From the IMG/VR virus record IMGVR_UViG_3300036045_000503, positions 1 through 30,340 of that record: a DNA stretch of 30,340 nucleotides; one strand, 5' to 3'. This DNA comes from a virus. Under the pieces are notes generated by a model, which saw only the letters and a list, made by a program, of their open reading frames with translations, ran no database searches and was not told the origin of the DNA. Position numbers and translations under genes: made by a program. This document shows positions 1,389-5,231 of this stretch, in pieces (positions within the stretch are counted from its first letter, which is position 1; the number at the start of each line of letters is the position of its first letter).

Positions 1389-1936
1389 GCGATCTGATGG
1401 GGCAGTGCCTGATGGACAGCACCAGCCCGGAGAGGAGGCCCGCCGTGCATGAGTCCCCTCGGACGGATGGAGGCGCCCTCACGCCCACGGAGGTGATCGA
1501 CCTGTGCTGCCGCGAGCTCGCCGGGTGGCGATTCGCTGAGTCGCGCGGCCTGCTGACGTGGGACTTCCGGCGCGCGGGGAGCGAGGCGACCTTCAATGCC
1601 ATCCTCCACGCCATGCAAGCCGTCGATGCGGTGATCGACAGCGGACTGGTGCTATCGAGCTGGCTCGATCAGACCGGCATGGACAGTGTTGATCGCGACG
1701 CCCGATCCCGGACTCGTCGCAAGAGGCCGCCTGCGCTCGAGGAGGCGTGCAGGCAGGATCTGCTGCGTGCCGCCAAGGAGGCCCGTGACGCCTGCGCAGC
1801 ACTGTTCCGCTTCGCGGCGGCGACCGGCAAACATGACGAGGCGATGTTGTACATCGCTCGGGCTGGCGTCCGGGATGGCTTCGGTGTCCGGCTCCAGCAG
1901 GCGATCGCCGCCATGGAGGAGGTGCGCCGTGCCTGA
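1385..1936 (+). CDS. hypothetical early-operon protein
   Basis: A 183-residue protein that I do not recognise. The ATG at 1385 has a GGAGG Shine-Dalgarno six bases upstream and overlaps the preceding stop (ATGA), so the coding assignment is firm. Residues 31-45 (TEVIDLCCRELAGWR) and most of the remainder look helical. A basic segment around 105-118 (RSRTRRKRPP) precedes a helical C-terminal half rich in Ala and Arg. No catalytic motif, signal peptide or membrane segment is visible. Position between RuvC-like and DnaA-like genes suggests a role in replication or recombination. Confidence 0.7.
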   Translation: MSDLMGQCLMDSTSPERRPAVHESPRTDGGALTPTEVIDLCCRELAGWRFAESRGLLTWDFRRAGSEATFNAILHAMQAVDAVIDSGLVLSSWLDQTGMDSVDRDARSRTRRKRPPALEEACRQDLLRAAKEARDACAALFRFAAATGKHDEAMLYIARAGVRDGFGVRLQQAIAAMEEVRRA

Positions 1937-2255
1937 CCGATGCACGACGCGCACGTCCTCAGGCACTCTGCCCCAGCGAGTGGGTGCGCCGCAGCCCATC
2001 CCACCCGACCGCGGTGTGGCGATCCAGGACATCATCGGAGCCGTCTGTCGAGAGCGGCGGGTGGATCTGAGCGAGCTGCTCGGTGGGTGCGGGCACCACG
2101 AGGTGGTCGCGGCCAGAGACCTCATCGCCGGGCTCGCCCGGGAGCTGACGCGGCTCTCCTACCCCGGGATCGCCCGGCAGCGTGGGCAGCGGTCCCACTC
2201 GACGGCGTGGGAGGCCGACCGCAGATGGCGCGCGGAAGGAGGTGGCCTGTCGTGA
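1929..2255 (+). CDS. DnaA domain IV-like DNA-binding protein
   Basis: A 108-residue protein beginning at GTG 1929, which overlaps the upstream stop. Residues about 30-100 match the C-terminal DNA-binding domain of DnaA: the EVVAARDLIAGLARELTRLS segment corresponds to the basic helix preceding the HTH, and PGIARQRGQRSHSTAWEA to the signature helix, with the hallmark HST triad. DnaA domain IV reads nine-base DnaA boxes. Domains I-III, including the AAA+ ATPase, are absent, so the protein can bind DNA but cannot act as a full DnaA. The next gene encodes a winged-helix initiator containing an iteron array, so this protein may help open the phage origin or compete with host DnaA for boxes. The domain call is strong; the role is inferred. 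Confidence 0.75.
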   Translation: MPDRCTTRTSSGTLPQRVGAPQPIPPDRGVAIQDIIGAVCRERRVDLSELLGGCGHHEVVAARDLIAGLARELTRLSYPGIARQRGQRSHSTAWEADRRWRAEGGGLS

Positions 2256-3598
2256 CCACCAGTGAAGCACGAGGCGCGATGATCCGACTGACGGACAAGC
2301 TCAACCTCTTGGCTCACGCCAGGATCAGCATGGTCATGGGCCGCAGGCGTGCCGAGGGTCGGAGTGTCATCGACGCGGCCAAGGCGCGGTGCGTCCTCTT
2401 CGCGCTCGTGAACAGGAGCGACCAGGATGGCTGCTGCCACCCATCCCTGTCGCTCTTGGCCGCCGAAAGCGATGTTCCAGCGAGGACGCTGCAAGCCGTG
2501 CTCTCAGTCCTACAGGACGAGGGCCTCGTGCGAGTGCAGCACCGCCACCAGCGGGGGGGAGCCGACCGCACCAACCTGTACCAGATCGTCTGGGACGCCC
2601 TCGCTGAATGCGCGGAAGGTGGCCAGAGATCATGCGCCACAGAGTCACCACATCTCTTCGACCGAGGGCGCGTGGACTGCGCCCTCATGGGCGCAACCGT
2701 TGCGCCCATGAGGGCGCAGAAGCCGCGCCCACAAGGGCGCACCGATGGCGCCCTGAGGGCGCAGCCACTGCACCAGGAGGGCGCAGTACCTGCGCCGGAA
2801 GGGCGCAGTGGAGCGTGTCGCTCTAAGGAAGAACCTCCCAATGAACCTCCCAATGAACCCGCCCCCAACCCCCCAGAGGGGGGCAAGCCGGAGGGGGGGG
2901 GAGGAGATGCACTCGCCCGGCAGACGGAGATCCGGATCGACCCCGCCGACCGATGCCCCACGCAGCTCGCACCCGGCGACACCGACCGGGCTTGGGCGGA
3001 GCGTGTCCGTGGCGCCTACCCGTGCCACCGGACCGACAGCCCGCTCCCGATCGCGGACGAGGACGCCGTGGTCGAGGCCATGGCCGCCGAGCGGCTCCGG
3101 GCATCGGGTGTGCGGCCCGAGGAGATCCTCAGGGCCGCCCGCCAGGTCGCCGACGATGCCGCCTCCGGCCGCTTGCGGAGCGTGCTCCGCCTGAGGGTCT
3201 GGGCCCGCGGCCGCGGCTACGTCGCCCACGCCGAGGCTCAGCGCGCCCTCCGGGCGGCGGCTGAGTCGCGCCCCGGGCCGATCGACACCGAGGCCGCCGC
3301 CAAGGCGATGGCTGATCGGGAGGCTGCGGCACGGGCCGAGCGGCATGCGGCGGAGGCCGATCGGGAGCGTCTCCGGCGGGAGCGGGACGCCGAGATCGAG
3401 GCGGAGCTTGCTGGGCTCTCCGTCGAGGAGCTCGAGGGCCTCAGGGCACGGATCGCAGCCGCCGAGACCACGGCCTTCGGGCGTCAGCACTGGAGCCGCA
3501 AGAGCGTGAGGGCCGACCCCGCGCTGAGGCAGCGCATGGCCGAGCTGCACCGCGCCGACCGCGCCGGCCAATTGGTGCCGGAGGGGGCTGCGGCATGA
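2252..3598 (+). CDS. winged-helix replication initiator protein
   Basis: A 448-residue protein beginning at GTG 2252, overlapping the previous stop by GTGA. Residues about 45-115 form a winged-helix/HTH_36-type domain, with CCHPSLSLLAAESDVPARTL as the turn and recognition helix followed by a wing with a GGADRTNLY motif. This domain is typical of phage and plasmid replication initiators. Residues about 140-235 are low-complexity, Pro/Gly/Arg-rich, and are encoded by the iteron array at 2666-2807. The C-terminal part is helical, with an Ala/Arg/Glu coiled coil at about 345-410. The layout, initiator gene containing the origin in its middle, matches lambda O and related phages. It probably binds the iterons and recruits host helicase. 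It ends in an ATGA overlap with a 27-codon frame. Confidence 0.75.
   Translation: MTTSEARGAMIRLTDKLNLLAHARISMVMGRRRAEGRSVIDAAKARCVLFALVNRSDQDGCCHPSLSLLAAESDVPARTLQAVLSVLQDEGLVRVQHRHQRGGADRTNLYQIVWDALAECAEGGQRSCATESPHLFDRGRVDCALMGATVAPMRAQKPRPQGRTDGALRAQPLHQEGAVPAPEGRSGACRSKEEPPNEPPNEPAPNPPEGGKPEGGGGDALARQTEIRIDPADRCPTQLAPGDTDRAWAERVRGAYPCHRTDSPLPIADEDAVVEAMAAERLRASGVRPEEILRAARQVADDAASGRLRSVLRLRVWARGRGYVAHAEAQRALRAAAESRPGPIDTEAAAKAMADREAAARAERHAAEADRERLRRERDAEIEAELAGLSVEELEGLRARIAAAETTAFGRQHWSRKSVRADPALRQRMAELHRADRAGQLVPEGAAA
2666..2807 (+). repeat. iteron array, candidate replication origin
   Basis: The motif GGGCGCA recurs as direct repeats starting at 2689, 2712, 2735, 2757, 2779 and 2801, with a GGGCGCG copy at 2666. 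Spacing is 23, 23, 23, 22, 22 and 22 bases, about two helical turns, so all copies face the same side of the DNA. Since 22 and 23 are not multiples of three, the repeats fall in all reading frames; they are conserved as DNA, not as a protein repeat. Inverted copies (TGCGCCC) occur at 2678 and 2701. The array lies inside the initiator gene, the usual place for lambdoid-style origins. Confidence 0.75.
2677..2719. repeat. perfect palindrome within the iteron array
   Basis: Arms 2677-2697 and 2699-2719 are perfect reverse complements over 21 bases around a single C at 2698. The palindrome embeds two direct and two inverted copies of the iteron core. It could be a cruciform or nicking structure, or a paired initiator-binding site at the edge of the origin. 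Confidence 0.8.
2831..2854 (+). repeat. tandem 12-bp repeat beside the iterons
   Basis: GAACCTCCCAAT occurs twice in tandem (2831-2842, 2843-2854), followed by a partial third copy. This short interval is less GC-rich than its surroundings and lies just after the last iteron, so it is a candidate unwinding element. A small C6/G6 hairpin follows at 2869-2883. In protein terms the repeat adds PPNE twice, and 12 is a multiple of three, so a protein-level repeat is the other explanation. Confidence 0.5.
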
Positions 3599-3728: not shown

Positions 3729-5231
3729 ATGCTCGTCGCCAACCGCCAGACCGGCTCGATCCGCCCATACCCCGGGAATCCGCGGCGCATCCCCGACACC
3801 GCCGTCGCCGCCGTCGCCCGGTCGATCGAGGCGTTCGGGTTCCGTGTCCCGATCGTGGTCGACGCCGAAGGGGTCATCATCGCGGGCCACGTCCGGCTCC
3901 TCGCCGCCCAGCGGCTCGGTCTGGCCGAGGTGCCGGTGCATTTGGCCGTCGACCTCTCGCCGGAGCAGGCTCGGGCCTACCGCATCGCCGACAACGCGAC
4001 GGCCGACCACACGTCCTGGGACGAGGAGCTCCTGCCGATCGAGATCGAGGCGCTGGGCGCCGCCGGCGTTGACCTGGGGGCCCTCGGACTCGACCCGGAC
4101 GAGCTCGCCGCCATGCTCGAGCCCGAACCCCAGGGCGGCCTCACCGACCCTGACTCCATCCCCGCGCCGCCGGACCAGCCCACGACGCGCCTGGGTGACG
4201 TCTGGATCCTCGGAGACCACCAACTCCTCTGCGGCGACAGCGGATCTCGCGCTGATCTCGACACGCTGCTCGAGGGCGAGTCCGTCCAGATGGTCAACAC
4301 CGACCCGCCCTACAACGTCCGAGTCGAGCCGCGTTCGAACAACGCCATCGCCGCGGCGATCACCGCCGGCGCCGGGCCGAAGTCCGGGCCTCCGCGCACC
4401 CCAGGTCGCGTTCGCGCGGGCAAGCTCCGCCCCAAGGACCGGCCGCTCGCCAACGACAACGTCAGCGATGAGCAGTTCACTCGCCTCCTCGACGGGTGGT
4501 TCGGCGCGATCTCCCACGCCCTCGATCCCGGCAGGGCGTTCTACATCTGGGGTGGCTACACGAATTGCGCCGTGTACCCGCCCGTGCTCTCCCGGCACGG
4601 CCTGCGGTTCGCCCAGGCGATCATCTGGGTGAAGGAGGCCCCGGTCCTCACGCGCAAGGACTTCATGGGCAACCATGAGTGGTGCTTCTACGGCTGGCGA
4701 GAAGGTGCTGCGCACCAGTTCTTCGGCCCGCGGAACGTGCCTGACGTCTGGCAGGTCAGGCGAGGTGGTTCGGCCGAGGCCTGCATCGCGAGCGGCCTGC
4801 GACTCGAGGCGGAGGATGGGTCCCGCATCGACGTGCTCCCACCCGCCGGAAGCCGCCGGCTGCCCACCATTCGGCTTGGGCCGGAAGGCGCCGCAGTGCA
4901 CGGCCCGGCAGCGGCAACGGACGTCTGGTCGGTGCGGAAGGTGCCCGGTCAGGCAATGGTGCACCTCACCGAGAAGCCCGTCGAGCTGGCGGCCCGGGCC
5001 ATGCGGAACTCGTCGCGGGCGGGCGAGCGGGTGCTTGACCTCTTCGGCGGGAGTGGCTCGACGCTCATCGCGGCTCAGCAGCTGGGCCGGCACGCCAGGC
5101 TGGTCGAGCTCGACCCACCATACTGCGACGTGATCGTCGAGCGATGGCAGCGATTCACGGGCGGGCAGGCAGTCCTGCGGGAAGGAGCGGTTCCATGGAC
5201 AGACGCGCGTCGCGCCCGCGTGGGAGCGTGA
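3729..5231 (+). CDS. ParB-like domain fused to a beta-class DNA methyltransferase
   Basis: A 500-residue protein. Residues about 8-100 are a ParB/Srx-type nuclease domain (RPYPGNPRRI, VVDAEGVIIAGHVRLLAAQ, AYRIADNATAD). The rest is a methyltransferase with motif IV DPPYNV at about 192 and, later, TEKPVEL and motif I LDLFGGSGST at about 435-445. Catalytic motif before the AdoMet-binding motif is the order of beta-class N6-adenine or N4-cytosine enzymes. Such fusions are common in phages and may protect phage DNA or regulate genes; no partner restriction enzyme is seen. ATG 3729 was chosen because the protein then begins directly at the ParB domain; an in-frame TTG at 3681 would add 16 residues. 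The end overlaps the next gene by 37 bases. Confidence 0.85.
   Translation: MLVANRQTGSIRPYPGNPRRIPDTAVAAVARSIEAFGFRVPIVVDAEGVIIAGHVRLLAAQRLGLAEVPVHLAVDLSPEQARAYRIADNATADHTSWDEELLPIEIEALGAAGVDLGALGLDPDELAAMLEPEPQGGLTDPDSIPAPPDQPTTRLGDVWILGDHQLLCGDSGSRADLDTLLEGESVQMVNTDPPYNVRVEPRSNNAIAAAITAGAGPKSGPPRTPGRVRAGKLRPKDRPLANDNVSDEQFTRLLDGWFGAISHALDPGRAFYIWGGYTNCAVYPPVLSRHGLRFAQAIIWVKEAPVLTRKDFMGNHEWCFYGWREGAAHQFFGPRNVPDVWQVRRGGSAEACIASGLRLEAEDGSRIDVLPPAGSRRLPTIRLGPEGAAVHGPAAATDVWSVRKVPGQAMVHLTEKPVELAARAMRNSSRAGERVLDLFGGSGSTLIAAQQLGRHARLVELDPPYCDVIVERWQRFTGGQAVLREGAVPWTDARRARVGA

Follow-up and report, generated by a model that had tools for sequence, protein, structure and literature searches.

The initiator gene and its neighbourhood

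The DNA analysed here, a viral sequence of 30,340 bp referred to as the window, constitutes a complete IMG/VR record, and the features of interest are centred on a gene for a replication initiator, which is immediately preceded by a small gene:

1928 to 2255, plus strand: small gene whose product carries a DnaA C-terminal DNA-binding domain (Bac_DnaA_C, E = 1.9e-12 in the ORF 1686–2255), its start codon tentatively assigned from the sequence
2252 to 3598, plus strand: replication initiator gene, 448 amino acids, GTG start, with a GGAGG ribosome-binding site upstream

The initiator protein consists of an N-terminal winged helix (approximately residues 42–117), a low-complexity linker encoded by the repeat array described below, and an Ala/Glu-rich C-terminal part. 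An earlier note on this DNA had placed the repeats inside a winged-helix initiator gene, and this is borne out both by the PHROG families of O-like replication initiation (phrog_391, E = 2.6e-10; phrog_1032, E = 7.4e-9; also phrog_8540 and phrog_270) and by an AlphaFold2 model, built with 25 relatives, in which the N-terminal domain is a winged helix with a pLDDT of 85. The N-terminal domain fits the family profiles, the match to Pfam HTH_36 (E = 0.0047) being under the cut-off, and no RepA_N domain was among the Pfam matches of the initiator at E ≤ 1. Concerning the fold, the PDB matches of the modelled domain were generic winged helices, mostly MarR-like regulators, while those in a viral library were phage HTH and O-like proteins, including the putative replication protein O of phage Min27. 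It should be noted that no close relatives of the initiator gene were found in the viral or genome contig collections searched.

The small protein encoded directly upstream of the initiator comprises the DnaA C-terminal DNA-binding domain only. The DnaA-domain neighbour given weight in the earlier note is thus present, but not as a regular companion, since no counterpart was seen beside the other initiators examined; DnaA boxes within one mismatch were absent from the first 6 kb. On the other side of the initiator gene, positions 3729–5231 encode a protein in which an N-terminal ParB-like domain is joined to a DNA methyltransferase (phrog_620, E = 1.4e-42). This protein is 72% identical to that of IMGVR_UViG_3300009527_000200 and is frequent among other viral contigs. 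At approximately 200–290, the minus strand resembles, by eye, a tRNA gene in its 3' half, with ARAGORN finding no complete tRNA; this tRNA-like stretch may represent an attachment site or flanking host DNA.

The iteron array and the adjoining AT-richer stretch

The array occupies positions 2666–2807 and is followed by the stretch of lowest GC content in the gene:

2666 to 2684, plus strand: iteron 1, GGGCGCG-TGGAC-TGCGCCC, 6 of 7 arm pairs
2689 to 2707, plus strand: iteron 2, GGGCGCA-ACCGT-TGCGCCC, 7 of 7 arm pairs
2712 to 2730, plus strand: iteron 3, GGGCGCA-GAAGC-CGCGCCC, 6 of 7 arm pairs
2735 to 2753, plus strand: iteron 4, GGGCGCA-CCGAT-GGCGCCC, 6 of 7 arm pairs
2757 to 2775, plus strand: iteron 5, GGGCGCA-GCCAC-TGCACCA, 5 of 7 arm pairs
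2779 to 2797, plus strand: iteron 6, GGGCGCA-GTACC-TGCGCCG, 6 of 7 arm pairs
2801 to 2807, plus strand: terminal half-site GGGCGCA, without partner arm, 1 of 7 arm pairs
2677 to 2719, no strand assigned: near-perfect long palindrome (iterons 1–3 with the complementary spacers TCAT/ATGA), with cruciform or hairpin potential
2818 to 2857, plus strand: presumed DNA-unwinding element, the 40 bp with the lowest GC content in this gene (GC 0.475 versus a gene mean of 0.717)

All seven GGGCGCA/G copies at 22–23 bp that had been reported are present—GGGCGCG at 2666 and GGGCGCA at 2689, 2712, 2735, 2757, 2779 and 2801—with successive spacings of 23, 23, 23, 22, 22 and 22 bp and codon phases of 0, 2, 1, 0, 1, 2 and 0 relative to the GTG at 2252, as was to be expected from the claim that the copies fall in every reading frame. 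The 7-mer itself, although real, is not the repeat unit that the earlier note had taken it to be, the half-sites on the opposite strand having been missed. These are TGCGCCC at 2678 and 2701, CGCGCCC at 2724, GGCGCCC at 2747, TGCACCA at 2769 and TGCGCCG at 2791, perfect or decayed, each 12 bp downstream (start to start) of one of the first six copies. The two half-sites together define a repeat unit of 19 bp, the imperfect inverted repeat GGGCGCA-N5-TGCGCCC, present as six units and a final lone half-site. This iteron sequence appears to be new. Eight exact GGGCGCA/TGCGCCC words lie within 150 bp, whereas no more than four were reached in any of 200 first-order Markov simulations of the complete 30,340-bp sequence; within 130 bp, eight such words compare with a mean of 3.0 and a maximum of 5 in synonymous-codon shuffles of the initiator gene (0 of 1000 shuffles reaching the observed number).

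The 40-bp stretch with the lowest GC content in the gene begins at 2818, directly 3' of the array; it is in absolute terms just moderately AT-rich and contains two 12-bp tandem repeats GAACCTCCCAAT at 2831–2854; an AT-rich region directly beside the iterons, as in a lambda-O-type origin, is thus found here. The AT-richer stretch 2831–2860 encodes EEPPNEPPNEP, and the same place in many relatives encodes EPSxEPS/NRKEPS-like peptides, which are probably a by-product of the AT-richer DNA element.

The O proteins of lambda and the Stx phages bind 19-bp inverted repeats in the middle of the O gene, where additional iterons just lengthen the protein by further residues (PMC7466680). In the lambda O gene, analysed as a control, the four annotated iterons are 20, 24 and 23 bp apart, with codon phases 0, 2, 2 and 1, and the lowest-GC 40 bp are found at locus position 622, three bases past iteron 4. 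The analysed gene resembles lambda O/ori-lambda in having 19-bp imperfect inverted repeats, spaced within the 20–24 bp range and in more than one codon phase, in mid-gene, past the DNA-binding domain, and in that the 40 bp of lowest GC content follow the iterons immediately on the 3' side. It differs in its half-site (GGGCGCA versus ATCCCTC in lambda), in the number of copies (six iterons and a half-site versus four iterons) and in that no gene P-like loader was recognised adjoining the initiator. A direct hhalign comparison of the analysed winged helix with lambda O gave no match (probability 0.4%), and the sequence link between the two is indirect, via a shared PHROG, phrog_678 being matched by lambda O and, weakly, by the analysed initiator.

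Judged from its sequence, the segment 2666–2857 is very probably an iteron origin of the lambda type, unwinding element included, lying inside the gene of its own initiator and bound by the product of that gene. The lambda-O-style initiation site proposed in the earlier note thereby gains support from the array, the adjoining low-GC stretch and the same layout in relatives, whereas the cumulative GC-skew minimum sought at such a site lies near 16 kb and not at 2.7 kb, a weak test, because the record is a linear 30-kb viral fragment with unknown ends and mostly co-oriented genes.

Arrays in related initiator genes

A tblastn search with the winged helix of a relative yielded 95 phage records, including Pseudomonas, Klebsiella, Lactococcus, Microbacterium and cyanobacterial phages. 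Of 19 genes taken as one set—the analysed gene, that of locus L004 and those of annotated phages—15 had in-gene repeat clusters exceeding synonymous shuffles at p ≤ 0.005. The half-sites of this set vary (GGTGCAA, GGTAGTA, GTGACAC, TATGCCA, GGGGTCA, ACCGGTC and others), but the location of the array is shared and the spacing is mostly 22–24 bp. A search of IMG/VR with a winged-helix alignment, in which selection was by protein similarity of that domain alone, provided 80 loci (L203–L282) with 54 non-redundant O-like genes, and an in-gene array was detected in 53 of them against synonymous-codon shuffles at p ≤ 0.05 (47 at p ≤ 0.005). These arrays mostly begin within approximately 20 bp of the end of the winged helix; direct-repeat lags of 17, 22, 21 and 23 are prominent in the linker only and not elsewhere in the relatives' genes, the most enriched inverted repeats have 7-bp arms and a 5-bp centre, and for 42 of 53 relatives, versus 5.5 expected, the 40-bp stretch of lowest GC content falls between −20 and +60 relative to the end of the array. 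Where both spacing classes are present in the 54-gene set, copies 16–18 bp apart precede, on the 5' side, those 21–24 bp apart (34 of 36 genes); the analysed phage and lambda have the longer class only.

The array could alternatively serve as an operator for early transcription, bound by the initiator or by another regulator, for instance the DnaA_C-domain neighbour, with the origin elsewhere. Winged-helix proteins are often repressors, MarR-like regulators prevail among the PDB fold matches and the GC-skew minimum is indeed elsewhere; the arrays, however, lie approximately 400–550 bp inside the gene, behind the winged helix, in one family after another and not at promoters, the adjoining AT-rich stretch better suits unwinding, and in lambda an array of this geometry is a proven origin, so that an operator seems improbable.

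Concerning the divergence of the repeats, 49 pairs of related genes with protein identities of 70–98.5% were compared. Differing positions amount to 5.0% in half-sites, 15.2% in spacers and 18.3% in the remainder of the gene; for third codon positions alone, the values are 7.4% for half-sites versus 31.4% for the remainder, i.e. about four times less, all these figures being descriptive because the gene pairs overlap. The check suggested in the earlier note, whether the phase of the repeats is kept while the encoded residues vary, had a positive outcome in the relatives, where the position of the array, its spacing (17/21–23 bp) and the third positions of the half-sites are conserved and the peptides differ. 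That the repeats are kept as DNA, also claimed previously, is likewise upheld by the use of all reading frames and by the conserved third codon positions of the relatives' half-sites. Similarity of the recognition helix predicts similarity of the half-site after correction for the rest of the winged helix (partial Mantel with kinship ignored, partial r = 0.38, p = 0.001), the reverse test being weak (r = 0.11, p = 0.083, likewise with kinship ignored). Such a co-variation would be predicted for initiators that each recognise the array within the gene encoding them.

Maintenance of the repeats at the level of the protein or RNA, as a repetitive peptide linker or as mRNA hairpins, is very unlikely. 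The RNA of 2660–2825 does fold far better than its shuffles (z = −9.2), but stable hairpins are an automatic outcome of inverted DNA repeats, and no Rfam family matched. Since the copies occupy all reading frames, the encoded peptide is not repeated; this, together with the conserved third codon positions of the half-sites, led to the rejection of peptide- or RNA-level selection.

A DNA pattern built on a sister half-site (GGGTGCA-N3-5-TGCACCC-N3-5-GGGTGCA) was run, without regard to proteins, against 2.9 million viral contigs and matched 36 contigs. In 33 of them the array lies inside an ORF with a winged-helix domain; the remaining three are a contig edge that keeps a typical EPSxEPS-like tail, an open frame without a winged-helix match and an apparently intergenic case. 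The GGGCGCA half-site of the analysed phage recurs at the same gene position in L004, an otherwise different initiator. In genomes, the exact GGGCGCA triple pattern gave 60 matches, mostly dispersed Oscillatoria repeats, just three loci, in three genomes of Mesorhizobium, being in winged-helix genes, with the half-site again in that position. In these three (L111, L155 and L164), the number of in-gene GGGCGCA copies varies between species by whole in-frame units, seen as GRTHAPP peptide repeats. The Oscillatoria contigs (within L105–L164) carry dispersed, often contig-end TGCGCCC/GGGCGCA repeats in two assemblies, and these repeats have no relation to initiator genes.

A role of the array as a partition centromere serving the ParB-like/methyltransferase protein of 3729–5231 is hardly credible, even though that protein is encoded by the next gene and parS sites are palindromic, because none of 80 related ParB-methyltransferase loci has a dense GGGCGCA/TGCGCCC cluster (three at most in 150 bp, at one locus) and none has a winged-helix gene, the arrays tracking the latter instead.

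Proposed mechanism, comparable systems and implications

For the lambda-type origin, we infer binding, unwinding, helicase loading and origin activity of 2666–2857 along the following lines. Within the linker-coding part of the initiator gene, each 19-bp inverted-repeat iteron would be bound by the N-terminal winged helix, probably as a dimer, and the spacing of 22–23 bp—about two helical turns—would align the bound initiators on one face of the DNA in an O-some-like complex. The strain from this complex may then open the AT-richer stretch directly 3' (2818–2857), where the host replicative helicase would be loaded. No gene for a helicase or a P/DnaC-like helicase loader was recognised among the proteins scanned, a subset of the ORFs.

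In pSK41-type plasmids, the origin also lies within rep, and the peptide it encodes is a dispensable linker (PMC5703833). The RepA_N initiators of these staphylococcal plasmids resemble the analysed one in that an N-terminal winged helix binds repeats central in its own rep gene (PMC5703833); they differ in belonging to the RepA_N winged-helix family, in their AT-rich Rep boxes, in being plasmid-borne and in a C-terminal primase-interaction domain, which is not seen in the analysed initiator. Two weak fold matches, the Rep–DNA complex 5kbj and the initiator 4pt7, may be pSK41-type proteins, going by their PDB titles only. The Rep of pPR9, with a phage-type HTH_36 (pfam13730) domain, supports autonomous replication as a mini-replicon (PMC5703833). 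It shares with the analysed protein the same kind of N-terminal HTH, although the analysed initiator matches HTH_36 only at a level under the Pfam cut-off, and the phage relatives analysed have in-gene arrays. The replication proteins of the Lactococcus phages BK5-T and phi31 possess a related winged helix, and in BK5-T four ATGTAAA copies at 22–23 bp occupy the same place, where the record annotates a repeat region; the AT-rich repeats of these phages are, however, not significant in an exact 7-mer test, and the C-terminal half is of a Gram-positive type.

Since lambda O and the pSK41-type plasmids share the origin-in-initiator layout, that of the analysed phage is of a known kind, and it is the family-wide survey that constitutes the useful part of this work. 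The comparison of more than 100 related phage genes suggests, at the level of sequence, that this layout may be the rule for a large and diverse phage family. More tentatively, with a chance that we would put slightly below even, an origin directly behind the winged helix could be a design shared almost universally by O-like phage initiators from many phyla, in which a fast-changing half-site co-evolves with the recognition helix and 16–18 bp copies are often followed by 21–24 bp copies and by an AT-rich element encoding EPSxEPS-like peptides, a design with no general description so far. In open-access papers on phages with pfam13730 proteins, these are annotated as replication proteins and an embedded origin is not described; judged from that literature, the family-wide in-gene layout seems, tentatively, to have been undescribed to date.

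The probable origin of a metagenomic phage has thus been located from its sequence, and the odd repetitive linkers of O-like initiators would find an explanation as a by-product of DNA sites. This provides, for a large initiator family, a recipe for finding origins, namely 19-bp inverted repeats and then an AT-rich stretch, directly behind the winged helix. If the general design holds true, the origins of thousands of temperate phages would be readable from the initiator gene, and the O-like phages would represent a natural set of matched initiator/iteron pairs, useful for studies of DNA recognition and for building compatible replicons.
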